DNA of 64,000 nt from positions 63,550,101 through 63,614,100 of the forward strand of contig JAVHZZ010000011.1 of NCBI GenBank assembly GCA_036250195.1. Reading direction: 5' to 3'. The notes under the pieces were generated by a model. That model searched no databases. It was not told the DNA's origin and worked only from the letters and a program-made list of their open reading frames with translations. The DNA comes from Mixophyes australis (lineage: Eukaryota > Chordata > Amphibia > Anura > Limnodynastidae). Made by a program: the position numbers and the translations under genes. Position 1 is the stretch's first letter. Every line of letters starts with the position of its first letter. Shown here one piece after another: positions 34,271 to 61,809 of this stretch.

Positions 34271-34547
34271 AAATAGGCAGGAAGTATGTTAACACTCCTT
34301 CACTGCACATCCCTCCCCCTTTCCACCTAGTGTAGAGAGTAGTAAGTGTAAAATGCATCTTTGCCTACATAGGGACTTACACTTACGCATTTTTCGGGCA
34401 CAGTAGGGAAATGCGTACTTTCTGAAAGTAAAATGGACTAGCGTCCAACTCTGGAAGTACAGTGTCATTGTTATTTAATCTGTGTATTTAAGCACTTTAG
34501 TTACAGTTACTAAAGCTATATTAATTCAAATTAAGCTATATTAATTA

Positions 34548-36620: not shown

Positions 36621-36785
36621 ACTCTGCGGCGCTCCAGTACTTCTTCCTCAAGCGCGCATGCGCGAAAAACCGGCCCTTTAATTCCCCACACTTCCGGTGG
36701 GTTCGCCTTGCGCGAGGTACAGATTAGGAGGACAAGTTAAAGAACTGGACACCCGGAGGATGGACTCCCGGATAGGGTAAGTGCA
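36620..36785 (+). promoter_or_regulatory. GC-rich promoter-like patch ending in a splice donor
   Basis: Directly after the Penelope RT the base composition jumps. An NRF1-like site (CGCGCATGCGCG, about 36653-36664), an ETS site (ACTTCCGG, about 36689) and a strong donor GGATAGG|GTAAGT near 36777 lie within 160 bp. It may be the terminal repeat of the Penelope element. Because it is on the same strand and only 1.3 kb before the IZUMO-domain start codon, it could also serve that gene. Both readings are inference. Confidence 0.35.
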
Positions 36786-37429
36786 CTGCTCTCGTCCTAC
36801 ACCACATATCTCCTAGCCGCAATTCCGGATACCGTCTAACGGCTTTCACTTCACTATTTGCTGGTCCGGTTCAGGGACTCACAGACAAGCGCCATACAGA
36901 CTCTTCCGATTTCAGCTTTTGAAAACGTGACTATTTGTTTCCTAGGCCTTATTAACCCTCTATGGGAACTTTTCATTCTTACCTCTGAGTTACCGTCCTT
37001 ATCTGGATTCCTCTACCGCACATCTTGTTTTACAAGTACATCTATTGCACACTGTATCCAGGTATTATTATTTCCACTCTCTGATTTAAGTTCCACTTGG
37101 GCTTACAGTAATTGTCTTTTGACTCCTCATTGTTCATATCCAATTTAGGTACTCAGCCGGCTGGCTTGAACACTAGGAGCTATCCACTGCCAACATTAGA
37201 CGTTTGGCTACAAGACCGTGCCATTTTTACAGCAACCCTGTTTGTTTGCACCTCTACAGCTTATCTATGATGAGTGAGTGTACCTAGTTATTATACCTGC
37301 AATAAATACAAGTACGCCGGCTGGCCTACTTGCTGCAAGATAATTTGTCTTCTGTACCTTTGTTGCTAGATCTCCCCTCCGCCTCCATCCACCCCCCCCC
37401 CCCTGCGCCGGGGTATTGACTACTAGACA

Positions 37430-37960
37430 CCAAACTACCTTTGTCCATTTCGTTTTATATTGTTCAGTCCATGCGGGCTGCTTTTTTTCTATTTAACTAC
37501 AAGTGGAGCAGGGGGGGGTCATAGACAGCCACCAAACTACCTTGGTCCATTTCGTTTTATATTGTACAGTCTATGCCGGCTGAATTGTTTTCTATTTAAG
37601 TACAAGTGGAGGGGGGTGGGAAGGCTGATGCAGACAGAACCCAAACTGTCTTTGTCCATTTCTATTTATATTGTAGTCTATAACGGCTGAATAGTTTTCT
37701 ATTTTACTACTTGTGGAGAGGGAGTCTGATGCAGACAGATACCAAACTTCTTTTGTCCATTTCTATTTAACGTACAGTCAATGTAGGCTGATTTTTTTTC
37801 TATTTAACTACAAGTGTAGGGTGTAATATACACCCAAAGACGATGGCTGCATTGACAATAGGCATAGATGGAGAGGAAACCAAAACCAAAACACAAAGGT
37901 AATCCAGATCCAAAACCAAAACCAAAACACGGGGGTCAGTGACCATATTAATACATATAT
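37430..37960. repeat. ~85-bp tandem repeat, right part of the interrupted repeat
   Basis: Four to five diverged units of the pattern ACCAAACT...TTGTCCATTTC...TTTTCTATTTAACTACAAGTG follow each other, then an A/C-rich end (AACCAAAACCAAAACAC). Phrases match the sequence just before the Penelope insertion (35310-35470). Confidence 0.7.
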
Positions 37961-38115
37961 ATGCAATATATATAATTAACCACGACATACAGACTAGATT
38001 ACAGAAAAGTAATATGTCACACACCTGTAGAACATTATGATGTCACAAAGTAGATTCTAAACCATGCTATAGAATGTCATATAGCAGAAACCTCATCTCT
38101 CTAAGTCATGGCATT

Positions 38116-38335
38116 ATGTATACCATCATTCTTTATGCAAGTATTATTAATGTGGTTTCTTGCTGTTTCCAGTGTAACTCAAAAGTAACAGGTATATTTT
38201 CCAAAATCAGAAAAGAAGCTTTACCTAACCGGTTCAGAGACAGCAGGCTTCGGAACCGGTGTGAGAAACTGGTGAAGGGTATGGAGAGTAATTTTTTCAA
38301 AGACTATGCTGCAAATCATTTCACAGGCCTTATTG
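38116..38335 (+). CDS. IZUMO-domain gene exon 1 (signal peptide, CxxC, helix 1)
   Basis: ATG at 38116 gives a compact signal peptide. The in-frame ATG at 38074 would add 14 polar residues (MSYSRNLISLSHGI) and is less likely. Donor ATTG|GTATGT, phase 1. It encodes CFQC and a charged helix with RFRDSRLRNRCEKLVKGMES. 5'UTR and promoter are undefined. Confidence 0.82.
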
Positions 38336-41300
38336 GTATGTACAATTAAATGTGACTATTATTAATAATACTTTGTTTTTTTGTTTCACATGTTTAATAT
38401 TGTATAAAAAAAGAATTACAAATTTGGTTATATCATTCCTTTGTTAGGATATGGTAAAAAATTGTGTTTACAGAATGCCTGTACTAGACATTATTGTACA
38501 GTATATCAAAGCCTGCATGTTACCGAGCTAAATATTATACTTGATATGACAGATGCCACTTGTCCTTTCCCTTGTTATCCTTTAAAAGCAGCTTAAAATT
38601 TTAGTAAAGGTGCTTGTGTACCTGATTATTTAAGAAACTCCGTCCACCCCAGAGTGAACAGGTCAGTCAACCTGTTCAGTGATCTCTATGAACTGAGTAT
38701 ATCTGTGTTCACCATGAGCTGAATTAATTGATTTTAAAATCATTCATGACCTGATTCATTGCTGCACGTAAATGGCAATACATGGTGTATATTGTGTAAA
38801 ATAGCACCGCGCATGCCCAGAAACAAACCATATGCCAGAGAACGCAGCAACGTTCAATTCATCTTCGAGCGCAAAGGACCCTTACTATAGCCTATGATTT
38901 CAGGAGTGGAGCGTTGAGGGGACTGGACATATGCATGTACACAATGTATAGTAAGCGAGTGCCAAGCTTTGGGTATCTGAAAGGTACTTGTTTTTCAGTC
39001 GTATCATTTGCAGCAGCTCCAGGTCTGGTGTTAGTGCCAAGTGATGCATGCTATAACATGTGTTTGCAACCAGGAGCAACTATAAAAATGCATTTTATGT
39101 ACAGTACAATACAATACTGATAAATGTATTTCATGGATGGGGGGGATATTGTTTTTGTTTTACAGACATATCTTTACGTTTGCTCCTTATTGAATACGGA
39201 CATGCATATGCCTGATTTACGTTAGTTTTCCGTGCCTTTGTGAATCAGGCCCTCAATGTTCAATTACTCAGTTAAGAGGATTTTTTTCATTGTAATCTTT
39301 TGCTAATATCCTAAGCTTAACTACAGTAAATTACACTGGAATCTGTGGAATAACTATCGTTATAGAACAATGATGTATTCACGTTTAACAAAGGACCTCT
39401 CCCATTACCCCCATTTGGTTTACGTTATAAAGGATTATCACAGTATTAAGTACGAGAGTATTAAGTTTTTGTGCATGGGTATTTCCATGTTTGAGGATAA
39501 TATGTAATAGATCTGAACATGCACTTCACCGGAGCGCAGAACTCTACTTACTAAAGAGCAGTCACATTACATAATAGTGGACTTATAAAGGTTATACTTA
39601 CTTGCTTTTTAACATAGCAAATCCCGTGCTCAACCACAATGTATTTTTGTTTCAAAAGTTGCACGATTAATAAGGTATCCCTCCTTAATCATTAAACATA
39701 ACCAGCAACTAAAGCATGCACTCATTGTCTTGTGTTCAGAAGGTGGTTAATCATTACTTCTAAGAATGACAGCATGTGAATACGTCTACAAATGATGATT
39801 GCAATTAGTGGAAGGACCTCTTAGAAGGTGATGTAATAAATGTCCAGATCATATAAATAATGAAATAATGCAATTGACAATATATCCTATTCTCCAAAGT
39901 TGTAACTTTCCTACTTTAATATAAATTCTTGCTTGACTTTTAATGTATCAGTCCTGAAAATGTACCCAAATGTCAAAATAAAGAGTCCTAACTTCAAAGA
40001 TACTGATGTTTCATAATCCTGTATACTTGTTCTGATTATGTGATGATCCAAATGATGAATAATCCTTCTGTTTTAATATATATTCATTTAATGTGGTAAT
40101 ATATGGCAACACGGAGCAGATTTCAGATTCTAGGTGTATGTAATAGTCTTAAGGTATTGGTTGTACATTACTTGTATTAAAGGGTCACTATCATTTTCTT
40201 ATTTTATAAATTGATTTATATGATTTATGAACAAATTCAATGGTGCAATGGTGCAAAAGGATCTAATTTTAGTGAAAATGTCCTTTTATTGTAATAACTG
40301 TTTTTTTAACTTTCTGTGAGCAGTCCTTAACTGACCGCCCCTCCCTCAATTACAAAATCATTTATTGATTTTATAAGCATGACCTCCTCTTCCACCCACA
40401 AATTGTTTAGGCAGCACCAGCCATGTTTACCCTAATACTAAGGGTGACTAGCAGTGAGGTTCCCCCTGTTATAATGATAATCAGCTCACAGACTGATCAG
40501 CACAGGGCTGGTACCCGGACGTTGCTGGTCCTGATCTAAGCGGTGAGGGTCTGGCCCATGTATGATCTGGCACCCCAGAACAAAACCTAACTGTCCCTAT
40601 GGCCCTTGCCTACTGGACAAATAATGCATTAGAACTCTGTTCATAATGCTGAGAAGGCATGTTAGAAATGAACAAAATACGAACACTCCCAATATACTTT
40701 GTTGAAAAAATCTTTATTTAAAAAAAAAAGAAAAGAAAAAGAAATAATCTATTCTTGATTCTGTGCAGCCCAGCACTGACAGGGTTATTCACCCAACTCC
40801 AAGGCAACCGTGTAAGAAAAGGCAGTGTTGTATGGAACAAAGGAAACCTCTCATTATAGTTGGACTATATATTCTAATATGTCTAATGTGATAGAGTTTG
40901 TAGTTCCACAGCACATGGAGCCAGCAGGTATAGGAATGCAGTAGTGCAGTCCAAAACATGAGTTTCTTAAGAGTGTTGGCATGTAACACCCTCTTGTGGC
41001 ATAAATGTGCGTGACGCCGAGAGTCTGAGCCAGCTCAATGCATGGCCTGGAGCTGGTACAATTTGCATCCAGCCTGTGACTGCAAACTGCCTGGCTAGCG
41101 AACAGACAGATGGAGGATGCTCCCGGCTGCTCCATTTGGTTTTACACATAAATCATGGCAAAAGTATATTATGATTGGCAGCGGCGCTATATAAATAATA
41201 TTAAGAGAAAAGTTTCCAATTGTCAACCTGCATGGTAATGATATGACGTTTCCTTGCAGCATTTGTGGTTTCTCTGATACACTGAAAGTCACTATGTGTT

Positions 41301-44300
41301 ATAGCTATGACCGCATTGGCCAGGGAATTAACTCTGGTAGATGCCTGTGCAGTGTGTTTGGGTGCCAATTATTTGTCTCCAGCCAGCAACTTAAAACATA
41401 AAATGATTTAACTCATACTTACCAACTTTTGGTTGGTGTGCTCTGGGGGATCTCGGGGGCAGATGGGCATGTAAGGGGGGGGGGCTCACCGAATTGCGCA
41501 ATTCAGCTCCACCCCCTAAGCAGGCAACATAATTAAAAAAAAAAAAAGCAAAGGAAAGAGGGTGCTCCGTGGTACTGATACAGGCAATTTCAGTATCAAA
41601 ATGATATATTACTCTGTCTGATTAAACTAGCTGCTTCCAATGGACATTCTACTGCAATGTCTCGAGAAGAAGTAAACCAAATTATTGATGGAAGCGCTGG
41701 TATGTCAGTCTTTAATAGCTGATGTATTACTAACATATAACATACACAATTGAGATGAAAAAACTTATATGAGTATTATCAAGAGTAAAAATTAAATATA
41801 AAATAAATTGTAAAGATAAAAAATTCAAATATGTGCAGACCGGAATAGAGCCACCTGCTAGTATTGTATTCTGAATGATATTCTGATATAGACCTTGTTA
41901 TTCAGGTATCATTGTGTTTCAGAGGGAAAGGATAATTGTTCCCAAAGGGAAATTGAATATAGCAAGTTCCAACTTGTAAAGTGATGGTGTAAAGTCCTGG
42001 GTGGACTAGATATACAGGAACAGAGGTCTGTTCAGCTCTCCTATAGATAGGATATAGTCCACTTTATAGTCTGAGGAAACCGCCACCTAGGGTCGGAGAA
42101 ATGCGTTAGTTGACGTGACACATCCGGTTACTAGCGCTACCTGTATACAAACCGAAATCTATGTGAAGGAATAGGATGGAGATCGTTTATGCAATCCCTG
42201 CATCTACAGCTTAAGATAAGTGATTATTTGTTCCGTATGTGCACACACCAGCAAAAAACATTCCACGTTTTTACTATATTGGCACAGCAATAAACGGCTG
42301 TTCGACGGTGGACAGAACACCAGGATACAACAGGACTAAAACCAGCCTGGCTTCTCTACAACATCCACTATATAAAGTAATTTGTGAACTATCACTTAAA
42401 GTGGATTATATCCTATCTATAGGAGAGCTGAACAGACCTATGTTCCTTTATATCTAGTCCACCCAGGACTTTACATCATCACTTTACAAGTTGGTACTTG
42501 CTGTATTTATTCTCCTTTGGGAACAATTATCCTTTCCTTCTGAAATACAATGATACCTGAATAACAAGATCTATATCAGAATATCATTCATAATACAATA
42601 GTAGCAGGTGGCTCTATTCCAGTTCTGCATATATTGCAATTTTAATTTTTTATCTTTACAATTTATTCTATATTTAATTTTTACTCTTGATAATACTCTA
42701 TATGAGTTTTTTTCATCCCAATTGTTTATGTTATGTGTTAATAATACATCAGTTATTAAAGGCTGACATACCAGTGCTTCCATCAATAATTTGGTTTACT
42801 TCTTCTTGAGACATTGCAGTAGAATGTCCATTGGAAGCAGCTAGTTTAGAGTCAGAGTTATATATCATTTTGATACTGAAATTGACTGTATCAGTACCAC
42901 AGAGCACTCTCTTTCCTTTGCTTTTTTTATCTATCACTTTTTAACTGTCACTTTAAGTGATAGTTCACAAATTACTTTTTATAGTGGATGTTGTAGAGAT
43001 GCCAGACTGGTATTAGTCCTGTTGTATCCTGGTGTTCTGTCCACTGTCGAATTTTACCCTATTCCAACAGGGTGCAGGTCCATGATGATGCGATAATCAT
43101 GTCACTAAGCCCCGCCCCCACCATGTTAACTAAGGAAGGATGCTTAATGCGGGAGGTTGCCCAGCTCTCCCAGGAGTCTGGGAAGACTCACAGAAATTCG
43201 AGAGTCTCCTCAGAACTCTCTGTGACCTCTGTACTGGGCTGAGTGCAGAGCATCTCTCCAGTCCTACCTCCTGCAAGACTCACAGCTCTTGCCAACTGTA
43301 GGTTTCTACTCAGCCGCATGAGCCTCACCTGGGCTGTATCCTGGTTCTGCAGACAGATGTGTAACCATACATTTTCAATCCTGTGGGGGAGGATCCTATA
43401 TTCCCAGACCTGAACAGGTGTCCGACCAGCGCCACCTAGCTTGTAACAGCCACATAACAGGGGCAAATGAGGGATTCCTTAGAGAGGGGTTTCCAAATGC
43501 TAGGCTTCAGGGGAAAAGCAAACAAAATAGATGCAATATTAATGATAAAAATAGAAAAGTACAATGTATATAAATGTAGTAATGCATATTAAATAAAGAA
43601 AATAAGGCATAAAGTAAGTTGTACATAAAAAACACACATTAATATTAATCTTCTTTAACTAAATTATTCTTGACCATCTTACCAAAATAATGTAATACCT
43701 TGTAAAGTAATACAGCAATAAAGTAATACTTCCAATTGAGTAAAAAAACAATTACAATTAGTGTTACATTTACTCACTTAGTGCAGAATATCACAAGTAA
43801 CATAATTTTAGTGTATTTTCCTTTTTCTCTAAAGTCACAGAAACTAGAGTGAAAAGTGAGAAAAAAACACAGTGGTCATTTTGTTGAAGCCAAAGTTCAT
43901 TACAGGCAGAGTCCCACAAATAATGGGTTTTATACTAAATGCTATTATAGTTGTTTCTTAGTGCAAACACGAGGAGGAGGTTCTAGAAGCCATTTCCTTC
44001 TTCTAAACCACAGGGTCATCTCTACCTATTGTCTCATGTCTGTCTACTGTCTCTCTTCTTCATATGTCCTTGTCATGTATTTTGCTACATTCCCTACAGT
44101 TTATCACCCACGCTTATTTATGCCTAGCATACCTAGGTGTAATGATGTCCATGTATTTGTGATTTTGCTCACTGTACTAGTTATGTTTTACCTGTTATAT
44201 TGTATGTTGAATGAAATGTTGTTAAATATAAGTACCAATAAACAATATTCAACTATTATGGGTCCCCCAGGGGTGTTTCTCCCATAAGATGAATTGAGAA

Positions 44301-47300
44301 TCAAAATCAAGCACAGCAAATGTATCACCTGCAATAATTAATTATAATATATATATATTTTTTTATTATAATGGAAAGGCAGGTCCTGCAATCAGCACAA
44401 TGTTAGCTATTGTAATCCTAATACAGTAATTGTAATAAGAAGCAAGTGATTGGTGGTGTATCACCCTGGTCTTATTTTTGCAAATATTACCAGATGACCA
44501 GAGCTTGTCAGTATGTGTGTGTTTGGGTGGAAGGGCTGACACAAGTGCAGGCTTAGGCTAGGTACACACTGGAGCGTTTTCATCCAATAATCGGGCATAT
44601 TAGCCGACATACGACAATTCAGTTGGAAGTCGGGTTAGTGTGTATAGTAACACTATGGTAGAACATTGTTCCAAAGTGTCGATTGGCAGCTCATTTGGTT
44701 GATCACACTGTTTAATATTTTCCAACCAATCACTGATCATGTAGTGTGTATGCACTCATGCTCACGATCTCCATAAAGTTTACAGAGTTGTGTTCTTTTC
44801 AGCCAATGCTAGCGATGAATGTCCAAGTGAATAAATGTAGAGAGTGCTGTAGAGGGAATAATTAATTTGTTCGTTCTGAGACAGAATGTTTTGTTTCAGA
44901 GTCACAGAAGTAACAAAATTCATTAGGACATGTGCATAGCCATAACAAAGCATTTTAATCAGTGTGACAATGTGACAAGAATGAATGAATATTGTGCTGT
45001 AATTCTCTGAAGACTAGAGGACCAGATGCAGGACCAGATGAAGAGCAGAGATCTGAAGGTAAATCGTGTCAGTGTGTATGCATGAATTGCCAGACTGATC
45101 GGACCTTCATTCATAGGTACAACCGTTTGAGATAACACGTCGGCCGAACCTAGCCATAGACAACAGAAGGGGTAAGCCCAAAAATTGGTGAAGGGATGAG
45201 TAATTATTTTTAACTGGAGCCACCTTTTATTTTTCTCCCTCCTTCTCGCTCATACGTTTTTAGCAGCCTACTTGAAGTGGGAGATAAACACAACACAGTA
45301 AATAAATAAAAAAGTGAGCAATTTTTGTAAAAAAATTGGTAATATTGGCATTTCATGTATTACAGTGACAGATTCACTTTCATATTTTCTAATGTTAAAA
45401 TAATGTTTATCAGCATAAAATCTAAATAAGCTGGGATAATTACAAGACCTTATGAACTACTTTGACAATGCTATGATATTAATCTGATTTTTCACTGTCA
45501 TCCACAGAAACATATCAGTTCAACACACTGGCGCAAAAGCTGCAGAAAGAGGCACAATATTATTTAAATGCCAAAGAAAAAGGTATGCATTTTGTCATAA
45601 TATTTGCTTGCTAGTCACAATATTTCAGACTGTGGCTATGTTGACACGATTCAGCTTTAAGGGCAAATGTTCACCTTCAGCATAATTACTAACTGTTGGC
45701 AATAGTTGGACTGATATTAATTAGAATATATACATAAGTGATACCAAACTGAAACATTCATGTATAAAAATGACTCATTGTAACCAAAATTTCCATAAGC
45801 AGTTATTTGTAATTTCCTGTTTGGTTTAATTTCAAACAATTGTTTGTGCTCAGGCACTGTTGAAATCTATAGTAATAGCACATGGCAACTTTGCCTCCAC
45901 TGACCTCTACTTAGAATTGCATTGGCGAATTTTGCATGTAGTACTTTTTCACCACTGTGGGCCTGATGAATTTAGGAAAGTAAAGCAAAAAAATGAGTAA
46001 CTTTGCACCTTGGCAAAACCATGTTACTTTGGAAAAGGAGGTAAACTTAAAATGTGATGGCAGATTTATAGTTGGAATACGGCATGTCCTAGATCAACTT
46101 TAAATTTCAGTGTACAAATAAGCTATTAAGTATGTGTGTGCTACATGAAAAAAACAGCAAGTATTTTCCTTATGTGCAAAATAATAAACTAATTTGCACC
46201 CCTTGCATTGTAACATGTCCAGGAGAAAACATACTCTTTTTTTGCCATACTTTCCTTAATGAATCAGGCCCTGTTTGTTTTATTTCTTGAAATGCTCACT
46301 ATATAGCTTGCGTTCACTCAGCATGGGGCTTTACTCAGTGATTATAGACACCGGGCCTGAGTCACAAGAATTTAACCATTTACTTTGGAAACTTGCCCTC
46401 CCTCTAGTCTATGTTTTACACAGGTCTAGGGGTTGGTAGACAAGCCCCCAGGCCCATAAGCTAATCCAGACTGACCTCCGTATTTGTCAGTGAGCGACAG
46501 CCAGGACACTTCAAGGGCTTTGTTACAGGGTCCAGTGACCCATCCAAGTTCAATTCGGTGTTATAAGGTTGGGAACCAGTTTCTAGGGACACAGCCTGGT
46601 AGCGTCGGCATCCGGACCTCCCTGATATTCCCGAAAGGAAACACCCATTCCGAGTTCATTAGAACCCTTCCAGAACTTCTGGAACTTTTATACTTTTATT
46701 TATCTTCTCAGTTACACACAGAAAACAGGGGAGAGAGGTTTGGTGCTCGTTGTGCCCTGTTTTTCTATTTTTGTGGGATGTCGGTTACAGCTTTTGACTT
46801 CTGGTGTGTGAGTCCATACACAGTCATGATAATGCATAGAACAATTTGGAATCACCATGTAAAAATCATGAGGTTCTCAATTTGGTGATTAAATGCTTGA
46901 CAGGTGGCAACTCTATTTATTACAAGTTGGTAGGGTCAGGGAGAATTGAAAAGGTCTGCAAAAATCAACAAGTAAGGGCTGAAAAAAAACAAGTAATAAA
47001 AAAATAAGCAAAAATCAAATTATAATTGACAGTGAAACATGACATTGAAGATGAAGAACAGCTTGGGATTGTAAGTCAAAGTAAGGCAATGCAACACATC
47101 TATACATGTGGGCTAACAATTGTCAAAAAAAAACTGGAGCAATGCTCTGAACAAAGGTATAAATAAGCAGAGTAACAAATAACATGTGACATCTGCTGGA
47201 GTTATAGCAGGTTGCAGAATTCCAGACCAAATAGGCGGCATGGCAAAATGTAGGAATTCTGGTTTAAGTAGCTGCTGCCACCTACTGGAGACATAGCAGA

Positions 47301-50300
47301 ATGAAAATGATTTTCTAGAATGTACTACAACAGAGGTGTTTAAACTCCGTTCACAAAGGCTAATCACAGTTCATGTTTTCAGGATGTCCTTAATCATACA
47401 CAGGTGAGTTAATTTATCTGGCTGGGTCAGTAATTATCCCACCTGTTTCTAAAGACAGAAATCCAGAAAACATGACCTGTTGGTAGCCCTTGAGGCATGA
47501 GTTAGGACACCTCTGTACTAGAATGTTAGTATCACGTTAGCATTAAGACTTTTCAGATCCTTTGCGATCTGTGTGGTTTAGTACTGCCTACCATGGAGAT
47601 GCGGAATCTAATGGGGTGAAGGTATTCACCAGGGACCCCGCAAGGAGGTTTGGTCTTAGCTGCTTCAGCTCCACAGGTCGCAGTTCCCCAGGCAGGCACC
47701 ATGTGAGACCAGTGGATGGGCAAAGCACCTAGGTGCTGGGAGAAGCGGTGGTGACCCCCAGGTGAGCTTGCCGGACCCTAGCAGGCCAGTCTGTGGGTCG
47801 TTACGTGACAGATAGCTAGAATCTGATTGGTTGCTATGGGCAACACTTGCACTTTTCCTTCTTAGAAGGTTTAGTAAATCTACCCCTGAAACTTTTATAT
47901 GGCCTCTTCTTCCCAACCTCCATAGATAGAAAGCCTAATGTCCTTATGAGTCAGGGTAATATTAAGCTATTATGCCCTTTATTAAAGTGTCTCTCAAAAC
48001 GGGAATAACTTTGTCTGAAATTATTAACGACTGGATAGTAGCCATCTCGGTTCTACACAACTCAATCCCCGAAATGAGGGAATAGACAAACTTGAAAAGC
48101 ATAATTTCCAGAATGAGCCACATCACATCATTACCAGGTCCCCTGCAGCAAGAACAGTGCTAGAGGTACAATTAGCATTCAGCTTTATTTTTGGAACTGC
48201 CATCGAGTTGTCAGGTCTTTTGTATTTCTACCAACGCAGACTATGATGCCTTATATATGTTGGATCAGGGCAGATATCCTGAGCTTTGTTCCCTGGTAAC
48301 CTCAGCTGACCCTTTGTGCATAAACTATGCACTTGATTATTGCCATTTTATTCATGTCACTCTGGCAAAAAAGGAGCAATATTCGATTTGCAATGGAAAG
48401 TGGCCTTTTCCATAATGTACAGCTTTTGTTTCTTGAATTGGGAACTTTCTTGCCAAGGTTGCAGGTAATCAAGAATTAGCACTGTCTGGTATTGTGTTGT
48501 AGGTTTTACTTAGCCTATGATAAATTACTGTCAATTTTTTGGGTGGGATATGGGGAATTGTACTTGTTGGATGACTTGTCAGCAATTGGTGGGACAAATT
48601 TTCTTGATACAGCTTTGCCAGCCATTTGCAATGTTGTTTCATGCAGCACATTTGCCCTTTTATGCCCCTAAAAGATTTAGGTTATTGCATTATTGTAAAC
48701 TTTTATCCTCATCTGACCAACTTTGTGGGTGGGATGAAAGTTTATCCTCATCATCCCAACAGTCAATAAACTTGATATACATTATAATAATGACTTCAAA
48801 TAAAGCAGATGGACAGATTGCCTAAAGATGGGGACAAAAAATAGGTTTTAAAAAATTTGCCTATTGAGATAACAATGTATTGCATGGGCATTTGTACTTT
48901 AAACAGCAAAATGGCACTAAAGATACGTATATAAAAAAATATGTTTTTTTTCACAATTCAGTGCATTCTAAAGACTAAGGAGTCATTAAGGAGAGTAAAG
49001 CAAAAAAACAGGAGTAAATTTCATCCTGGGCAAACCATGTTACAATGCAAGGGCAGCACATGTGTTTATTATTTTGCACATAAAGAAAATACAGTATTTT
49101 TTGTCATGTAGCACACAATACTTGAGAGCTTTATTTTTACACCGAAATCTAAACTTGATCTAGGACTTGATCTATAAATCTGTCCCCAGATATTAAATGT
49201 ACCTCCCCCTCCATTGCAACATGGTTTTGCCAAGGTGCAAAGTTACTCATTTTGTTTGCTTTGCTCTCCTTAATGACTCAGGGCCTACAGGAGTTGAGAT
49301 ACCAATGCATTATCTAGGTGTTGTATCCTTAAATAGCAAATGGCACTAATGACAAGTGCAGAAAAAAATAGAGGTTGTGCACAAGTGCGTGGTAAAAATC
49401 ATACCAGTTGATATAGCAAACAATGTAGTGCCCAGGTATTTAATAAAGAAAATAAGAGAGGAAGATGGTGTCAAGATTTGGTCAGTTTGCACAGTGGAGA
49501 AAACCCCTACACAAATCTATTTGACTCCAATAAAAAAGAAATTAGATTAACTAAATAGTATGTAAAGTAATAGAACAAACAAACAAAAAAGCCAAATCAA
49601 GCAATGCTGCTGTTCAGCAAGTGCACGTAGAACAGAAGTGAAGATTAAAGTAGTAACAGGTCAGGACAGCCACAAATGGTAATATTCACAGATTTTTCCC
49701 CTAGAACAATCCAGGAGAAATGAGTGCCAGGGTGAGCTTAATATATATAAGACAAACTTTTATAAGACATGCTTATTAAACATGTGAGATTTTGTTCCAT
49801 AGTGATTGTTTTACTTTTGTTACATACACTGTGATTGGCCTGATCCTCCAGATGATGTCATTTATTCATTGCATTTTGGTCAAATCTTTATTTATTAATT
49901 ATTTATTTTTTTTCATTCTTCATTTATTTTATTTCTCATTTTAATTAAAAATTTTACTTTTACATGTTTTTAGTTTTTCTCATGTCTGCAGCAAAACATC
50001 TCAGCCTGAGTTTCCATTTATAACAATACATTAAACAGGCAGGAAGTGTTTAAAGTTGTTTCTAACAAATGTATTGTGAACTGGAGATATCAGCTGACAT
50101 GTATCAACTGAGTTTCAACAGATACTAGTTCAAAAAATAGTAGTCAGAGCTGTCCCTCCCTTCCCTATTTACCATTGCAGAACACAGGAAACTACTACAG
50201 TTTTTGCTACGTTGCTACAATGTTGCAGCTTTTTGCAAAACAACAATATTAACTCCAACTATAGCAGAGAAGCTAATATGTTTAAATGTTGTTTGCCATG

Positions 50301-53300
50301 TGTTAGCAAGAGAACATCAAAGACAGTGTATGTTGGATCAATGTATTCAATAGACATAGATATGTACAATGTATTAGTGTTACCTGACAACTTCAAATAG
50401 CAATTAGTATTCACATATTAATAATCTATTAGTTTGCAGGAATAGATGATTCTAAAGAAATCAAGGGCCTAAGAAGGATTCCAAACCCTCTGTACTCATA
50501 GAGAACAATAGGCACATGTAAATGTAAGAAGCCTAATCCAGGGAGATGCCAGAATTGCCAAATGGTGGCAAGAAGGATTTTTTTTCTCATTTTAAGGGAA
50601 AAATTGAATTATGCTTGTGTTTCCTTCTTTGTATCAGCAGAGGTATTTCTGCATGAAGGTTTGAAATCAATAGACATAAATGTAATAATTTTTAGCCTAA
50701 ACCATTTAAGTATACAATTTTAAAGGAGTTCCAGCAGACCATCAACCCATGTGGCTAAGTAACAAATCATTTGCTAAATGGCTAAATATTGAATATATAT
50801 TTGTATATATTAATGTATAAAGATGTACTGTTGGTCATTGTACATGTACAGTTTCTTAGAACATAACAACTTGAGCAAACCAGCAAGAAACACTAACTAT
50901 TAAATTCAGTAGGGTTGCCATCAGAAGGCTTTGGGTTTCCTATAACCTGATAAACAGGGGCCAGTCTTGTGGATAGTATACAATGCAGATTCCAGTGCAG
51001 GTGCCTAATGTACAGTTCTCTTCCTTGAGCTGACAGTAAAAAGCGGAGAAACCCATTGGGGTGACAATTACACCATACAAAGTCATATTTGCTTAAAAGT
51101 ATGTAAAACTGTTTTACAAACTGTCAGCAAAAAAATAGAAACCTGAACCATATCAGATGTCAAGTATAATGTGCTGAGCCATATCTGGTGCCACAAATAA
51201 TACTGAGCTAGAGCAGGTGCCAAATGTACAAAACTGAGCCGTATCTGGACCCAAGAACAAACAGTTGAACAATACTGACTGCAGCTGCTAATGAAAACTC
51301 TCCTGCCAGCTGTCAGCCTGACCATGGGTGTAACTACTGGAGTGCAGGAGTAGCATCTGCTATTAGGCTCATTAGTTGAGGAGGTTTGATGTAGCTGATC
51401 TCACCTATTGCACTAGTTAAATACTAGGAGCTAGTGAAAGAGAGAGTTCTCACAGTCAACAGTAGTCAGCGATTACATTTGGCTGTTTTTTTACATCAGA
51501 TATGGCTGAGTTTTTTTAAATTTGGCACCACTGGTCCCCCTCTATTATCTCCTCTGACTGTTGCACTCAGGACCGGATTAAGGGGATGGAGGCCCTGGGC
51601 TAAGGTAGCCTCCATTTCCCCGTGAGCCGCATCCCCCCCCCCCCGGAGCGCTTACCTGCTTCCGTTCCTCTGTCACTCCCGGTAGTGCTCCCGCGGCGCG
51701 CAGTAATATCCTTACTGAGGAGATTATTGCGCGCCGCGGAAGCACTACAGTGAGAGGAGGCAGCTAACAGCATAACATTTGCTGTTAGTTGCCTGCCATT
51801 CTCAAGCTGACAGTCAAAGCCGGGGGCGGAGATGCCCCCAACCCAATGAATGTCGACTGTCCCCCCCAGATGCCTGAGGCCCCTGGGCTTTAGCCCAGTC
51901 AGCCCTGGCTGCACTCATAGGAGAAAGCATGGTGTCAGTGATCAACATGGAGCTTATTTAGCATTATAGAGGGCTTCAAATTCTGCTGAATGGGGAAGGG
52001 AAGCAGTAAGGCGTAGAGCGGTGCAGAGAGGAGACTCTTGTCTGGCCAGCAATGGAAGTGAGGAGAGGGTCTTCCTTTATAGAAACTTTGTGGGCCTCTT
52101 CAAAATGTTTCTGCGCATCCACAAATATCTAGTGACACCCTGCGGAGCCGGTCAACAACCGGTTAAAGGCTGATATCTGGGAATAGAGGGGAAAAGGCAG
52201 GAAGAAGGTGTTTAATTACCAGGAGCAGTCTGCTAAATGGTTATAATAGCCCTGTCAGAAGTGGGGCATGGTGGTATAGACCTTAGGAACACAGAACACC
52301 CTTCCCCAGATCTCCTCTGTTGCATTGAAGTAGAGCCCCATAATTTATCATCATATTCACATTTGTTTATAAACATTTCTTTAAATATACATTTCTTAAC
52401 ATAATTATATTTCAACACAATGATAATCAGCTTGTTTAAATATGTAGCAAAGTACAAATATACATAGTGTTTATTAATCTACAGTTTATTTTCTTTTTCT
52501 TTTTCAGACCAAGAATATCTTGATTCATTGGTGACTTTAAGAAAAAAGACAACATTAGAATTAAAGCAGGCTCTTCAGGATTACCATGATAAAGGTACTA
52601 TACCCTACTAAAGATGAGAATATATGGGTAATATAAAAATAAATATTGAAAATGGCACAAAAAATAAAATAATTGTGTGTGCAATGCTTCAAAACACAAT
52701 GCTTAATTAAATAATTCATCCTCAAAGCAAACTCACTCTGATTACACTGTTGCTGGTCAAAATGGTTACACAAAGCAATGTAGGGTATATGGACATTGTA
52801 TCAGAGATGGAATTCCATATCACAACACAGTCAATAGCACATCAGCATAATAGTTAATTCCATTTATTATGAAGCAACGCTATCTATGTGCATTATTGTC
52901 ATCAAGTTAATAACTTAATAATTGAAAGTCTTGCTATTTTGTAAAAATAATATAATTCCCCGAACCAATCTACTTCCTTAGTGTTCCCTATTACGTGTTT
53001 CAAAGGAAAGATTCTACCTCCTCCTAAGATCCAGATCACTCTGAAACGTATAACAGGGAACACTGCTGTACTACAAAATACAGTATGTAAAACACTAAGG
53101 AGATAATAATGTACCCAGAATGCCAATTGAGTACTCTTACTACAGAATAAACATGAAATTAGCCTGCCACTAGAATTTCAGCATTTAAGAACCATCAAAG
53201 TCAGCTTTTTTGTGATCTGCGAAAAATAGCAGAAGAATTCTGCTCCTTCAACTACTTCGGTGCAGTGCATCCAGGTTTGCATAAGGCTTCATCTGCTATT

Positions 53301-56300
53301 GATCAATTCCTAAAGCTGGGTATACACTACAGAAATTTCAACCAACTTTTTATGCCGAGCTATTTTACATGCGATCGATGTTCCGATCGCTCGGTCCATG
53401 GACTGCATACACACTAGCCTTGTTTAGGATGATAAAGGAAAGAGCGGACGTCCCTTTAGTGACTTTTTACAGCCATGTTGTCGTGAGCAATGACTGTCAT
53501 TTCGTACTCACTGTTGTGTATCGGTCGGAAGTTTATACACACTACACAACGGAAACGAGATTGGAACGAAAATATTAAATGGTACGACCAACCAAATGAG
53601 GCGACAATCGTCCATTTGGGCAGACTTTCGACCATCGTGTCACTGCACACACTGACCCGACTTTTGAACGAGTGGTCGATTATTTCATCCCATTATTGGA
53701 TGAAAACTGTGTAGTGTGTACCCAGCTTAAGTACCTGTTGATTACCATGCCTATCTCAAAGTCAATAGGTCACTCTTAATGCTAACATCTTAACTGCAAG
53801 CTGTTAAAACATTGAAGTCAGCCTCAGACGCTGGTTCATATGCACCCTTCAAATTTTCATTTAGAGAAGAAGAGAGATACTCTATTCAGATGATATCTTT
53901 GTTCTGTATAATGTGCAAAAGAGAGACTGACCTGCCTCTAAACAATCTATCACCAAGTGGATTAAATCTGTGATCCATCAGACTTACACCAGTGCAAATC
54001 AACCTGTTCCGGTGCTTCTGCTGAACATCTGTGCAGGGCTGCCACATGGTCATCAATACACACTGTTTACCATATACTATAGGTTTGACACTTTTGCATC
54101 CAGAGATGCTTCTTTTGTTGCAAGGTTTTATGCACTGTAGCTTTGGGACATCCCCATTGTGACTCCTGTGGCCCCATAGGATGTGAGAGAAAATGTGATT
54201 ATATGTACGTACGTATGTAAAGTCTTTTTCTCCTAATCCATGGGGGACACTGGATGCCTTCCTTATTTCCCTTTTTGCGTTCTGCTTTCCTGTTCTTCAT
54301 GTATGGGTTCTATGTGTTATAGAACTTTTCTCCTCTCTCTCTCTCTATATTGGTTGTTTCACTAGATAGACTAATTTGAGTGCTTTGTTAATTAAATTGA
54401 AGATATTAGTCATTAGAAGTATAGAGAGGAGGTGCCTGCCATTATAGATTTATTTAAAGTGCCAGAGCTCCTCCTCACACAACTTAAATACCCCACAGGG
54501 ACTCCAGTGTCCCCCATGGACTAAGAGAAAATGGTTTTACATAAATACCAAACTAAAAATTTTTTCGCCCTTTTTGTGGCTGGCTATTCAAATCTGAGCC
54601 AATGAGCATATTTTCGGGATTTGATCTGGGGAGGTGGGGATTGTCAGCTTCTGACATGATTTGTCCCCTATGGGTAATCCACTCTTCCCAACCTTATGAC
54701 TTGCAAAGCCTTTGTCCTTTGGCTCCAACGTAATATCATTTTCTAAATGAATTAACCCTTGTGGGGTGCCTGTGCTACATTATGGACCTACAAATCCACC
54801 ATTTTTACCACTCTAGAGGGCTGCATATATCCACCACATTGCAATCCTTATGTTATTTCAATTCCACTTTCAATAAATTTATCTCTCCTCCAAACACAAT
54901 TAAATCCTTATTGGATGGGAACAAAAGATTGGGATGGATTTAGATCCAGAGTCCTGGGAATCTATCTGGCAGATTTTAACTAAATGTGTATCTTGATTTA
55001 AGAAATGCCTTCAAGCTTTCCAACAGGATCAATGCCTTCTTCCCTACCTACCCTAGTTTGTGCTGGAGAAATTGTATGCAAGTTGATTCCTTCTGACATA
55101 TGTGGTGGTCCTACCCCAAACGTCCATTGTAATGGTCCAAGATCAAAGCCCTTGTTTACTCAGTAACAGCTACTGTTACTCCTAGCTCGTCATAATACCT
55201 CCTGCTTTCTTTTATCAGTCCCTGCTACCGCCAAACACTCGTGCAAGATTATCCATCACATTATCATGGCCGCCAGATCCTAACTTTGCTGTTGTTGTCT
55301 CAACAATTAATCGGACAAAGCACATGGAATACATTATGTGAATTATTATTACTAGTACTATTATCTTAGTACCCTTTGGAACTTTGTGATCTACTTCACC
55401 TGAGTCTGGCAGCAGTCAATAGATTACTTTGATGCCATGCTTGAAGTTTGAAATCTCTGGAGCTTTTTAAACCCGGTCTAGGGCTTTTACCTTTTTTATT
55501 TATTTTTTTCAATTCCACTGTACTTATTTTTAGATCTTTGGCTGACTCTTTTTCTGCATTTGATCTGGAACTTCCCAACTCTTCTGGGATGGGGAGTTTT
55601 AGAGAGTTACACTTTGTGTCTCAACAAAGAATAACACAGCATCAGCTATAGAACTAGAACTTCAGATTAATTCAGTTTACTAGTTCTCTGATGTGGTTTG
55701 GTTATTGGGTACAGAAAAAGGATACACAACCTGAGGGAGAGGTAGTACCACTGTTTAAATCGGCGATGCAATCAATAGGATGGTGTAGAGGCAAGGTTTT
55801 AGCTTTTACAGACATCTGCAAATTTTGAACCAATGGAGGATTGGGGATCTGAGACTGCCAAAACAATAAATAGAATAGGCAATAATGAAAGACATAATTA
55901 ACTAAATCTGAATTTAATCTATCTAATCTGATTTTGGATTTCATTGTGTATTAAACACTGACACAAGACGCAGGTCATGTGGGACTTTTTACTGACATGC
56001 CTGTATCTCCAGTGGCAAACAGAAATATACAGATGTGGCATGTAAAAAAATTGTCTTTTAACACTGAAACAAAACTTCTGAAATTGCATTGCCCATGCAG
56101 CCAGATTTCTCCAAGCATAATATTAATGTTACACACCAAGCCATTAATAAGTTTGATGTTGTTACAGCAAACGGCTAGTGATATAAACGTCTAGAACAGG
56201 TTATAAGTGGTCTTCACCTATAGCAGCCACCTTTCCCATAGAGCTTGTTGCGCTCACAAGTACTTGGATGCCCCCAGATCTTAACTCTAAAGTAGTAGAA

Positions 56301-58807
56301 GTTTATATACAGTACCGTCACGTAGATATAGGAGGCAGCAACCGGAACAGAGGATGAAGTCAGGGTCAGTCCAATTTCAGGGGTTCGTGGCAAGTAAGAT
56401 AAACAGGAACAGGCTAGAGGTCAGGGCTGGTAGCAGACAAGGAGAGTCCAAATAGCAAAGCCAAGGTCAGGGGCAATCAGAGTTCAAGCAGGGTCCAGAA
56501 ACAAGCCAGGGTCACAACAGGAATCAATAATAAACAGGCATCCATAGCAATGTGAGGCACACAGAACGCTATAACTGGCAGGGAGGCTAAGCCCCCTCTG
56601 CCTTATATAGTGAAGGTGGCCAATCAGGAGTCTGGGGCATCAGCCCTATTCATTAGCCATAGAAGGCTGTATAATCAATTACGGCTTCTGCTCATGCGTC
56701 CAGCTGTCAAGCTGGCGGCGGTGTTTGGCAGAGTGTACTGGTGGCTGCCCCTGTGACAGCCGGGATAAAGGGGCTGAAGTGACGTCTGAGCTGTCAGGGA
56801 AACAACCGGGATGCGGCCTGATATACAGACAAATGACAAAGATTACCCTACTACAAAATCACCCTACTTTAGAAGGCAATTTGATGTGCTATATCTGTAT
56901 ATTATTTTTATACCAAGCATGCATTATTTGATTTGCTAAAAAATCTTCATATGTTCAGACATTATAAAGACAGTTGGAATAAGAAAATGTAATGATCCAG
57001 ATTTCACCCTTTTGTCACTACATAGGCGATATGGGATGTGCTACTTGCTTTTCATAATGAAGAGGGCGTAATCAAAATGTATTTTTTAAGTAAGGCAGTG
57101 AAATCTCTTTACTTACCATCTGAAATGCTCATGCCATGCTTTACATATCAACCATTCATGTTTGTATGTAGCATATGCTGTAATGTGCAGACACATATAA
57201 CTGGAGATAACAGAATTGGAGCTACTTTTATTAGTCCACTGCTTTGTTGGAAGTTCAGTAAAAGACACTTTTAGTTTTTCGTTTCAGTTTAAAGTCAGTG
57301 GTCTTATATCTATGGAAACATAGCACGTAGCAAAAACAACAGTAGGATACATGTCCTTATGGTGACAACGCATCTAATTGAAAAAAAATAAAATATGTAG
57401 ATCCCTATATCAACAAAATGTGATAAAAACAAGTCTGCTCTGTCTGTAATGATTAATAAGACATAATTGCTTTTCCAGAGAAGGAAAAAGTGACAAATGA
57501 TAATATCATAATAAAAAAAGCTGGAGTGATAACAATTTAAGCTCTATCATTTAGTTATATTTATCCCAAGAAAACAATAATAAAAAATTGATTATTGCTT
57601 AACAAGTAAACCATAAGAATAGAGATGCGTTTGAATAATTTTAATGTGATTTCTGCACAACTTCACAAGGACAATAATTCTAATTACTAACAAGAGAGGG
57701 AGATAGTCATGACCACAACCATTAACGCCATATTTTGATTTCTTTATATATTTGAGTATTAGAGATTTTTAGAAAATATATTTATATATACATTGGAAGT
57801 GCTAGAACAAATTCACAAGACTTTGATATAAATCAATTTAGGTCTCATTCTTGTCAATATATTATGCTACGGGGAAATAATTTTAAAATGGCCATTTTCA
57901 AACACAAAATATTAATTTGCCCATCCAATGTGTGAGAGACTGACGTCAGCACCAGAAATATTGGAGACACCAATCAAACAATGCAGAGAGCTTAAAAACA
58001 CAGGCGGAACTGGGTACTATAGCTGAACAGAGGTCAAGGCAGGTTACCCAGTGTTGTTTTTGTTTTATATTAAATGTCATCCAAATTCATCAAATAGAAG
58101 GCTCAAAGCAGGTTCCCTGGGTCAAAGTTCTGCCCAGCGTACACCAATGGGAAGTCCGACCAGGACCCTAACCCTCCTAAAACCTTTCCAGGATCCAATT
58201 GGAAAACTTTGCGTTGGTTTCATCCCATTCGGTGCCGGGGTGTTTGAATGCAGGCGACTGGAAGCCCCCTATAAGTGCACGCCTGGTGTGAGAGTGGTTC
58301 TGGTTTCTTCCAAGAGAGAGCGATTTGGCATTTCATGGTGCTAAGGAAAAAAATCTTTGTGGGGTTTTTCAGGTGATGATAGTGTATTAAGTACCAGGGC
58401 CGTAACTAGGGCTGTGCGACAGGGGCGACCGCCCAGGGCGCAACGCTGAAGGGGGTCAAAATTTAGGAATATTTTAGGTTAATTTGTTTAAAATTGAGGT
58501 CTAGGGGGGCGGCATTTGTCTTTCTTGCCCCAGGTGCTAGAATTCTAAGTTACTGCTCTGTTAAGTACTATCTGCTTGGGGGATACATGTAGGAGGACCG
58601 AGTGTGTAATCACTTACAGAGTACTCTGAACCTTTGTTCTGGCCCAGCATTTGGCACACATAACACTTACATGCTTCTCATGCTAATATGTTACATGTTA
58701 ATATTTATCTTTAAATTTTTTTCACCACTGCTTGCTAATTCTTAACACTAGACTACTATAATTATACTTTTTTTTATCTTTTGCAGCTTGCTCAGCAACT
58801 GAATGTG
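38116..58807 (+). CDS. IZUMO-domain (gamete-fusion family) protein, 5' part; continues past the window
   Basis: IZUMO-family proteins are secreted or membrane-anchored germ-cell proteins acting in sperm-egg adhesion or fusion. Four exons (38116-38335, 45508-45582, 52508-52594, 58787-58807) join in phase 1 to give 134 codons plus one base without a stop. Residues 1-15 are a hydrophobic signal peptide (MYTIILYASIINVVS). CFQC follows at 17-20, matching the N-terminal CxxC of the family. A helical, charged region of about 105 residues comes next, then CSATEC-G at 129-135, matching the hinge CxxxC-G motif. The spacing from the first to the third family cysteine is 112, against 113 in human IZUMO1 as I recall it. 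Odd points are CxxxxC instead of CxxxC and extra cysteines at 16 and about 50. The distal cysteines, any Ig domain and the membrane anchor must lie beyond 64000. Which IZUMO paralogue it is cannot be decided here. IZUMO1 and IZUMO3 look closest. Confidence 0.82.
38350..41400. other. IZUMO-domain gene intron 1, left part
   Basis: It contains a MITE-like element at about 38750-39253 with inverted CCTGATTCATTG / TGAATCAGGCC ends. Otherwise it is AT-rich sequence in which I recognise nothing. An A-rich tract lies at 40720-40745. Confidence 0.45.
41416..43215. mobile_element. CATACTTGCC-type MITE (copy 4) split by a large foldback insertion
   Basis: The left piece (ATACTTACCAACTTTTGG with a G-run, to about 41525) and the right piece (GCAGGTCCATGATGATGCG and CTCCCAGGAGTCTGGG, about 43068-43215) match the two halves of the hAT-type MITE seen at 27.3 and 31.7 kb. 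Between them lies the palindromic element below. The right terminus is decayed. Confidence 0.5.
41555..43050. mobile_element. Large palindromic (foldback) element, ~0.5-kb arms
   Basis: The segment 41555-42065 is repeated inverted at about 42405-42925 with small differences: GAAGTAAACCAAATTATTGA in the left arm, its complement on the right. A further inverted pair (about 42302-42400 and 42945-43050, with CAGAACACCAGGATACAACA) flanks the right arm. The loop (about 42066-42300) has CTGAGGA and GAAATGCGTT words suggestive of a decayed ribozyme. No coding frame. It lies in intron 1 of the IZUMO-domain gene. Confidence 0.8.
43220..44550. other. Intron 1 sequence without identified element
   Basis: A + strand open frame at 43856-44287 (143 codons) is long for AT-rich DNA and hydrophobic, but shows no family similarity I can name and ends near an AATAAA-like word. 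I treat it as an unassigned repeat or chance frame. Confidence 0.3.
44553..45157. mobile_element. MITE related to the GGGTACACACT family
   Basis: The left end TTAGGCTAGGTACACACTGG and the right end CGGCCGAACCTAGCC are partly inverted. The inner wording (CATCCAATAATCGG, GCCGACATACGAC) resembles the 9.7 and 53.3 kb MITEs. Its middle part may contain another insertion. Confidence 0.55.
45508..45582 (+). CDS. IZUMO-domain gene exon 2 (75 nt)
   Basis: Acceptor TCATCCACAG|AAAC, donor AAAAAG|GTATGC. Phase 1 on both sides. It encodes a helical segment ETYQFNTLAQKLQKEAQYYL and NAKEK. Confidence 0.8.
45958..46272. mobile_element. MITE of the GAGTCATTAAGGAGAG family, copy 2
   Basis: Similar throughout to 33948-34270 on the same strand. 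Ends GGGCCTGATGAATTTAGG and CCTTAATGAATCAGGCCC. Confidence 0.8.
46350..47320. other. Intron 2 sequence, unclassified
   Basis: The part at 46380-46900 is GC-richer than its surroundings and contains an open + frame (46484-46888), but I recognise neither a protein family nor element ends. It may be an old LTR or SINE. Confidence 0.3.
47331..47515. mobile_element. hAT MITE, 185 bp
   Basis: Ends CAGAGGTGTTTAAACTC and GAGTTAGGACACCTCTG are inverted. The flanks TACTACAA and TACTAGAA (one mismatch in 8) are the target duplication. Confidence 0.88.
47565..47800 (-). mobile_element. Truncated family-B LTR fragment
   Basis: On the minus strand CCTTGCGGGGTCCCTGGTGA and the sequence after it resemble the ends of the LTRs at 23.5-24.2 kb and 62.5-63.3 kb. 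Confidence 0.45.
48977..49286. mobile_element. MITE of the GAGTCATTAAGGAGAG family, copy 3 (inverted)
   Basis: The interior matches copies 1 and 2 in opposite orientation (GAAATCTAAACTTGATCTAG). Ends GGAGTCATTAAGGAGAG and CTCTCCTTAATGACTC. Confidence 0.8.
49290..51559. other. Intron 2 sequence, mostly unassigned
   Basis: A decayed ~30-bp tandem motif (CTGAGCCATATCTGG and variants, four units) lies at 51140-51260. I see nothing else that I can support. Confidence 0.35.
51568..51907. mobile_element. hAT MITE with a GC-rich hairpin
   Basis: Starts CAGGACCGGATTAAGGG and ends CAGTCAGCCCTG. The flanks GTTGCACT (51560-51567) and GCTGCACT (51908-51915) are an 8-bp duplication with one change. A long internal hairpin joins 51681-51710 with 51722-51748 (CCGCGGCGCGC / GCGCGCCGCGG). 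Confidence 0.85.
52508..52594 (+). CDS. IZUMO-domain gene exon 3 (87 nt)
   Basis: Acceptor CTTTTTCTTTTTCAG|ACC after a long pyrimidine tract, donor AAAG|GTACTA. Phase 1 on both sides. It encodes a helical segment DQEYLDSLVTLRKKTTLEL and KQALQDYHDK. Confidence 0.82.
52977..53068. repeat. Short imperfect inverted repeat
   Basis: AGTGTTCCCTATTACGTGTT at the left pairs with AACGTATAACAGGGAACACT at the right around a loop of about 40 bp. Probably a small foldback element. Confidence 0.6.
53311..53731. mobile_element. MITE, copy 2 of the 430-bp family
   Basis: Closely similar over its whole length to 9720-10153, in the same orientation, with the main difference a ~12-bp deletion. Ends TAAAGCTGGGTATACACTAC and GTGTAGTGTGTACCCAGCTT. 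Confidence 0.8.
53930..54545 (+). mobile_element. DIRS-like 3' end
   Basis: A broken recombinase C-terminus (WIKSVIHQTYTSANQPVPV, then ATWSS and YYRFDTFASRDASF in shifted frames) is followed by TCCTAATCCATGGGGGACAC (54231-54250) and its inverse at 54503-54525. This parallels the arrangement at 24.2-24.84 kb. The rest of the element is absent. Confidence 0.6.
54740..55460 (+). mobile_element. L1/Tx1-type LINE ORF2 C-terminal fossil
   Basis: Around 55065-55140 the + strand reads LCWRNCMQVDSF, then HMWWSYPK with a shift. This is the cysteine/histidine pattern (CWRC...H.WW.CP) near the end of L1-clade ORF2. Flanking parts fit a degraded LINE, ending before DLLHLSLAAVNRLL-like sequence near 55390. 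Stops and frameshifts throughout. Confidence 0.5.
56195..56770 (-). mobile_element. Gypsy-type solo LTR candidate, family A copy 2
   Basis: The minus strand starts near TGTCACAGGGGCAGCC (56741-56756), has a TATA-like CTATATAAGG near 56607, a T/C-rich TGACC-repeat region, and ends near GGTGAAGACCAC. It parallels 21385-22030. No internal region adjoins it. Confidence 0.6.
56840..58386. other. Intron 3 sequence, unassigned
   Basis: No exon or classifiable repeat is recognised. The open frame at 58051-58344 is of modest length and without family similarity. Confidence 0.35.
58395..58560. mobile_element. hAT MITE with perfect 8-bp duplication
   Basis: A 166-bp element starting CAGGGCCGTAACTAGGGC and ending CTAAGTTACTGCTCTG, flanked by identical TTAAGTAC (58387-58394 and 58561-58568). 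It lies about 230 bp upstream of the 21-nt exon of the IZUMO-domain gene. Confidence 0.92.
58787..58807 (+). CDS. IZUMO-domain gene exon 4 (21-nt micro-exon, hinge cysteines)
   Basis: Acceptor TTTTTTATCTTTTGCAG|CTT has a very long pyrimidine tract, and the donor TGTG|GTAAGT is a near-perfect U1 match. Phase 1 on both sides. It encodes ACSATEC, with the following G split over the next junction, matching the hinge motif that follows the helical bundle in IZUMO proteins. Confidence 0.75.
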
Positions 58808-59014
58808 GTAAGTCATTTTAAATCAAGGTTAGCCTCTAAGTGATATTTACATAAGATAATTTATTTACTCTTGGAAGGTGAACTGTATTGTCTTTGGTTT
58901 AAAAGTTGCATACTAAATACTGCTATATTTATGTGAAAGTTCATTCACTTTAATCAATAAGTAACCTGTACCGCTAGTAATGCTGCATGCGTTTTACTGC
59001 TTTTACAGAGTGCA

Positions 59015-59150
59015 TAACTAGAGATGCTCAGGCTCGGTTTTCTGAAAACCGAACCCACACGAAATTAGGGGATCTGAGTAGGCTCGCGAGCCGGCTCGGT
59101 ACTTTTGCGCATTCTCGGATCTGAATCGAGGCAAAACGTCATTGTTGCAT
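59015..59150. repeat. Copy of the CTCGGTT-head repeat
   Basis: TAGAGATGCTCAGGCTCGGT and following words (CCGAACCC, CGAGGCAAAACGTCAT) match the head of the repeat at 34548. The downstream 59150-59390 holds three diverged units around CAGAAACAGGGGTAGCAGTG. Confidence 0.65.
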
Positions 59151-59399
59151 TTCCAGGTCTAGTGGGTTTTGGATTCCATAAGTACCTCCCTCCCCAGGAG
59201 ATCCAGCACCATTGCTCAAACAGAAACAGGGGTAGCAGTGTTCTTGTCACTCTCCATTCTCCAGTGACATTGCTCAGTGCCATTACTCACACAAAAACAG
59301 GGGTAGCAGTGTTTTTGTCACTCTCCAGTCTCCAGTGCCATTGTTCATACAGAAACAGGAAGGGTAGCAGTGTTCTTGTCACTTGACAAAAATTGACTG

Positions 59400-60280
59400 G
59401 AAATTAATGTTATTGGGGTTAATAATAATAATCAGTGTGGATATAAAAATATTTATTAAAAACATATAAAATGCACTCATTAAACATATATAGACAGACC
59501 ACCTTCTATATGGGAATATCAATAATAAATCTATAGGTGCACCTACAGAAGATTATATAATTTAAATACGGTTACAGATGCTCCCTCTCGAGGTGTAATG
59601 ACCAATGTCTATTAATGAAATTGACTTCTTGTGGCAGTGCTCACGTAGATATAACTTTATAATATGCGTATAGCAATTCGCATAGATGTATGGTAATCAA
59701 AACTAATACGATCCAGAGGTAGCTAAACGGACTTCTGATTATTCCATGATCATAATATAGCATGCTTTGATTCCTCATACTCCAAGGCTGAAACTCCCAT
59801 CTAAGTGTAGTAGTAGTTCAACATGCAAATATAAACACTGTTGTACAGCAATAGAGACAGTGTAGCAGATATTCTAGTATGGAAATGGAGGCAGTCCACG
59901 GGTAATAATATGATATATTCTTACCAGAATCCTGAAGTAATTAGGATGTATCATCCAGTCTATGATTTAGCCGTCAGTATAAACAAGTTAGAAGCATGCT
60001 GCTATATTTACCCGGAATTTCCTATACATGTTGTATTAAGAATATTCTCGATACAGATTGTTTATTGTATATTGTTTGTTTATATAATTTTTTATTTTAT
60101 TTTATATTTTTTTATTTTTTTTTACTTGTGTATCTGCTTTATATTTTTGCTTATTATTATATTCGTAAAGAGATTTATTTCTAGTGGTTTACATTAGCTG
60201 GTTTACATATTCAGCTGCAGTATAAATATATATTTTATGAAGCATGCATTGGCTTTGTACCTGTGTCCCAAGATGGTCTT
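59400..60280. other. AT-rich sequence without identified feature
   Basis: I searched for the next IZUMO-domain exon (a hinge strand with CxxC) and found none. T-rich tracts at 60080-60150. Confidence 0.4.
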
Positions 60281-60283
60281 GGA

Positions 60284-61184: not shown

Positions 61185-61487
61185 GTCTCGGAATATACCT
61201 CTGCTCACTAGAAGTGCACTAGTGTGTGAGAGGTAGAAAGTGGGCAAAGTGCAAACATCACTCCATCATGTATAACCGCCTACAACTTTAGATTCACGCC
61301 TTTCATTAAATAAATTGACAGTTTTTCTGTTAAAATAGTACTCAGTTTTGCCTCATTTATGGCTTAAATTAATTATTAAAGTGAAGGGACATCAGTATTG
61401 TTTTAATTATGTGAGACACTTTTGTGTGTTTAAAACTTTTACATTGGGCAAAGTGCGAATGAGATATGTACATCTCTGCCAAGAATC

Positions 61488-61805: not shown

Positions 61806-61809
61806 CACA

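Follow-up and report, generated by a model that had tools for sequence, protein, structure and literature searches.

Which member of the IZUMO family lies downstream of mpv17l in the frog Mixophyes australis, and does that position mean that the gene has moved? The 64,000-nucleotide stretch analyzed here (the window, C11:63550101-63614100, from a genome of 3.1 Gb) contains four short exons that the original prediction had joined into an IZUMO gene, regarded either as a lineage-specific or lost member of the family or as an old member at a moved locus. The evidence gathered in this study indicates, with high confidence, that these exons are the front part of the seven-exon frog ortholog of mammalian IZUMO2, hereafter izumo2. 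Since NCBI gives the name IZUMO2 to the gene product in Mixophyes fleayi and nine other frogs (10 of the 10 frog species returned), this is an already known, annotated IZUMO2 ortholog, and the idea of a lost or new IZUMO has to be abandoned. The window exons are the following (window numbering).

38116-38335, plus strand: izumo2 exon 1, with the ATG, a signal peptide (assigned by eye), CFQC as the first CXXC motif, the helix 1-2 region and the donor gtatgt
45508-45582, plus strand: izumo2 exon 2, 75 nt long and flanked by phase 1 introns, covering the helix 3 region
52508-52594, plus strand: izumo2 exon 3, 87 nt long and flanked by phase 1 introns, covering the helix 4 region
58787-58807, plus strand: izumo2 exon 4, 21 nt, encoding ACSATEC with the first hinge cysteines

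As had been predicted, the donors of these exons begin with GT, the three acceptors end with AG and every junction is in phase 1. Junctions 1/2, 2/3 and 3/4 are identical in the NCBI protein P0001, named "izumo sperm-egg fusion protein 2 [Mixophyes fleayi]", which is 99% identical across 78% of the query and, coming from a frog, also bears out the assignment of the DNA to a frog genome. Membership in the family was confirmed by profile search: the joined exons form an open frame of 134 residues matching the Pfam family IZUMO (PF15005) with E 7.2e-16 and 59.5 bits (cut-off 25). Exon 1 by itself matches at E 6.1e-6, and its peptide aligns with the N-termini of other frog IZUMO2 proteins. The distance between the first and third family cysteines, C17 and C129, is indeed 112 residues. 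As a chance control, 21-base open exons of the form AG..GT[AG]AG were counted on the two strands of 52595-64000; five were found, only one of which, ACSATEC, has two cysteines.

The rest of the gene was located by tblastn of P0001 against 80 kb of downstream DNA, with exon borders then set by script. These exons lie at C11:63627982-63652661, outside the window, and are given here in window numbering.

77882-77962, plus strand: izumo2 exon 5, carrying CTMC, the second CXXC motif
95783-95906, plus strand: izumo2 exon 6
102501-102561, plus strand: izumo2 exon 7

The seven coding exons give an open frame of 222 residues with no internal stops, also across the distal cysteine exon (exon 5), and the protein covers the entire IZUMO profile (positions 1-143 of 143, E 3.7e-21, 76.7 bits against 25). 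Its order is signal peptide, CFQC, helical region, ACSATEC, CTMC, additional hinge cysteines, stalk, a hydrophobic helix placed by eye near residues 185-205, and a short basic tail. Both CXXC motifs of the IST superfamily are therefore present, the N-terminal one in the window and the hinge one in exon 5, and the hinge cysteines are invariant across the frog alignments. IZUMO is the sole Pfam domain detected (E 0.001), in a type I membrane layout devoid of an immunoglobulin (Ig) domain. Searches of solved-structure sequences with izumo2 returned no IZUMO entry among the results. Using approximate human reference sequences, izumo2 scored 315 against IZUMO2 and at most 67 against IZUMO1, IZUMO3, IZUMO4, SPACA6 and TMEM95, with 68 identical residues out of 196 aligned to this human IZUMO2.

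The gene spans approximately 64 kb, is intact, and was found in one copy. A genome search with PF15005 at the default cut-off gave zero matches, and at E 10 it gave six rows: window exon 1, an exon of izumo3 (see below) and four others taken as chance matches. Only one of these four, a weak match on C12, was inspected, and it was discarded as a transposase-like remnant on reading by eye. Four annotated isoforms, each from a different frog (P0005, P0007, P0011 and P0014), omit the equivalent of exon 2, a skipping that preserves the frame because both flanking introns are in phase 1.

Upstream of izumo2, the original prediction had placed mpv17l, and this neighbor could be recovered in part.

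26392-26698, plus strand: mpv17l exon 1, whose end is in phase 1, as is the start of izumo2 exon 2
26988-27058, plus strand: mpv17l exon 2, start set by eye
31070-31270, plus strand: last mpv17l exon, with the stop (PF04117, E 7e-7)

The first of these has no Pfam match as an isolated exon and is presumed to be MPV17L-like by similarity; the N-terminus of P0017, a protein of Pseudophryne corroboree, is nearly the same peptide. The short internal exon expected to carry a WP..Q motif was not found between exon 2 and the last exon (window 26700-31070).

The presence of mpv17l is what could make IZUMO2 appear to have been relocated to the mpv17l locus in frogs. P0017 adds to this impression, since this NCBI model (izumo2-like isoform X1) joins the mpv17l first exon to izumo2 exons 2-7. 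Relocation nevertheless appears unlikely once the wider surroundings are considered. RRN3 and a bMERB gene, which mark the MPV17L locus in mammals, lie on C7 close to a myosin heavy chain gene, with no Mpv17-family matches near them; for this reason mpv17l, and not izumo2, seems to be the odd neighbor. On C11, exons of another myosin were detected on the minus strand (tail exons between 63.331 and 63.360 Mb plus a motor exon located at 63.392 Mb, taken as one gene), the motor exon lying approximately 196 kb ahead of the izumo2 start. Its peptide matches MYH9, MYH10, MYH11 and MYH14 before the sarcomeric myosins, which makes it smooth/nonmuscle type, and POLD1 is located on the same chromosome at 80.89 Mb, 17 Mb from izumo2. 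These genes recall the IZUMO2 neighbors of mouse, where Izumo2 is described beside Myh14 in a passage of PMC4934852, and of cattle, for which one table row of PMC8624223 contains IZUMO2, MYH14, KCNC3, NAPSA, NR1H2, POLD1 and two unnamed genes. Thus, a moved locus, as originally proposed, is probably wrong.

The identity of the C11 myosin bears on this conclusion. The 46-residue motor exon is closer to MYH9 (41/46) and MYH10 (38/46) than to MYH14 (36/46), a comparison that would favor relocation, although naming by motor exons is not decisive. The gene is probably MYH14, even though the sequence itself does not show MYH14 and the closest motor-exon match is MYH9. EIF3D, a neighbor of MYH9, was weakly helpful for naming the myosins: seven of its eight rows fall on C8, 33 Mb from the myosin on that contig, and one on C9.

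In the M. australis genome, too, mpv17l exon 1 and izumo2 exon 2 are phase-compatible. P0017 may reflect read-through or a chimeric transcript, or it may be an error of gene prediction. A chimeric product of this type would have neither the signal peptide nor the first CXXC motif of izumo2.

The relaxed genome search with PF15005 uncovered a second family member downstream of izumo2, with a match at C11:63735783-63736178 on the minus strand, from which five further exons were read on that strand as far as exon 6, starting at 152125.

C11 ~63702200-63736200, minus strand: izumo3 (window numbering 152125-186078, loci L009-L013), outside the window

The joined model matches IZUMO with E 5.4e-20, and the NCBI name of its relatives is IZUMO3 in all three matches (Pseudophryne, Mixophyes and Eleutherodactylus). 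Exons 2 and 3 were chosen by similarity to the human sequence and afterwards agreed with the NCBI Mixophyes IZUMO3 model, P0019; the model used as query is short of a single glycine that P0019 has at the exon 5/6 junction, and the two differ at the N-terminus. The last izumo3 exon was not located in this reading. A match containing stops was considered as a processed copy and rejected, being an exon read through into the intron. A TMEM95 match of the model remained below threshold (15 bits against 27), and the izumo2 coding sequence had no BLASTN match in locus L013 of the izumo3 region. The two genes are convergent, with less than 50 kb between the izumo2 stop and izumo3 exon 6, and the NCBI IZUMO2 and IZUMO3 records share the longest-contig figure both in Mixophyes and in Pseudophryne, as expected if they lie on one chromosome.

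The N-terminal motif of izumo3 is MLTC here, with the first cysteine missing, and its CWTC is SWTC in P0018 and P0020 (Pseudophryne and Eleutherodactylus). Judging from these sequences, frog IZUMO3 may be in the course of losing one of its two CXXC bridges.

This neighbor also bears on the proposal of a lineage-specific or mammal-lost IZUMO paralog. In favor of such a paralog, mpv17l is not known to neighbor IZUMO genes in mammals. A 2015 survey placed Izumo2 and Izumo3 in mammals and reptiles only (PMC4807442). On the other side stand the uniform naming in frogs, the preference for IZUMO2 by far in the comparison with human sequences, and the adjoining izumo3, an arrangement matching the reptilian contigs on which the same survey describes Izumo2 and Izumo3 as adjacent. 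Together, they leave the paralog very improbable. A passage of a 2022 paper mentions IZUMO proteins in amphibians (PMC9482655).

Least credible of all is a pseudogene or chance assembly of open frames: the start of exon 1 does differ in P0001, but the frame is open over seven exons, the hinge cysteines do not vary among frogs, and the NCBI model has the same exons. P0001 begins MRKEAL and is devoid of the signal peptide and first CXXC encoded in window exon 1 (38116-38205); no upstream donor consisting of ATG[AC]G followed by GT[AG], which would explain this start, was found in 20000-38206. The N-terminus described here, with its signal peptide and defining CXXC motif, is therefore an addition to the public record, being absent from the Mixophyes model.

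With IZUMO2 of frogs and mammals, izumo2 agrees in its complete IZUMO domain, its pair of CXXC motifs, its one membrane helix, its lack of an Ig domain and its length of about 220 residues. As in mouse, it lies near a myosin heavy chain gene, the frog one being of smooth/nonmuscle type; a difference is that its neighbors here include mpv17l and izumo3. With IZUMO3 it shares the family and a similar exon plan, yet the two frog proteins are only 15% identical in alignment, and izumo2 keeps CXXC cysteines absent from the IZUMO3 sequences compared. By model, izumo2 may share with IZUMO1 a four-helix bundle and a cysteine hinge, a distorted bundle with a triangular face being characteristic of the IST superfamily; the Ig domain and JUNO binding, in contrast, are described as IZUMO1 features in passages of PMC4807442 and PMC11052572, and izumo2 has no Ig domain. 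Regarding SPACA6 and TMEM95, also of the IST superfamily, the scores of izumo2 against their sequences are within the shuffle range.

From these features, the izumo2 product would be a type I sperm membrane protein with one membrane helix, a short stalk, a short basic tail and no Ig domain, whose four-helix bundle would be tied to the cysteine hinge by disulfides of the two CXXC motifs. Its most likely site would be the sperm head, in either the acrosomal or the plasma membrane, where IZUMO2 may pair with IZUMO3, the product of the adjoining gene, to organize a surface for gamete adhesion; it would not itself be the ligand of an egg receptor. A role of izumo2 as a partner of IZUMO3 at the membrane of the sperm head, for which we infer expression, partnership and a role in fertilization, has in our view about even chances. 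A heterodimer of human IZUMO2 and IZUMO3 is predicted in a section of PMC11052572, which also cites complexes of IZUMO1 with IZUMO2-4 in rodent sperm. Weighing against the pair, IZUMO3 appears to form homodimers only, according to a statement in PMC3432370. A passage of PMC9482655 describes the functions of IZUMO2-4 in gamete fusion as not established and assigns IZUMO3 a role in acrosome formation.

Other features of the window are minor. Retroelement-like frames occur at 29683-30848 (minus strand) and 35425-36724 (plus strand); one matches part of a reverse transcriptase at 24.2 bits, under the curated cut-off of 29.6, and the other, with no Pfam match, has a reverse-transcriptase-like motif. 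A minisatellite-like stretch extends over approximately 62670-63080, its frames reiterating one peptide unit.

Documentation of the izumo2-izumo3 pair in an amphibian is a second addition to the record; no literature report of the frog pair or of an mpv17l-izumo2 transcript was found in titles and abstract openings of open-licence papers. The side-by-side position of the genes in this frog, together with their adjacency in reptiles, suggests that the pair is older than the frog/amniote split. In mammals, IZUMO2 and IZUMO3 are presumably apart. A tentative joint reading, which we consider possible and somewhat short of likely, is that IZUMO2 and IZUMO3 form an ancient linked and interacting sperm pair, kept in the frog as convergent neighbors beside mpv17l and a smooth/nonmuscle-type myosin gene, with frog IZUMO3 losing one CXXC bridge and IZUMO2 keeping both; a chimeric transcript may draw on the promoter and first exon of mpv17l. 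Ordinary as a gene, izumo2 is moderately interesting as a case of ancestral synteny, and a linked gene pair with a predicted association of the human products would be a good place to test the role of IZUMO2.
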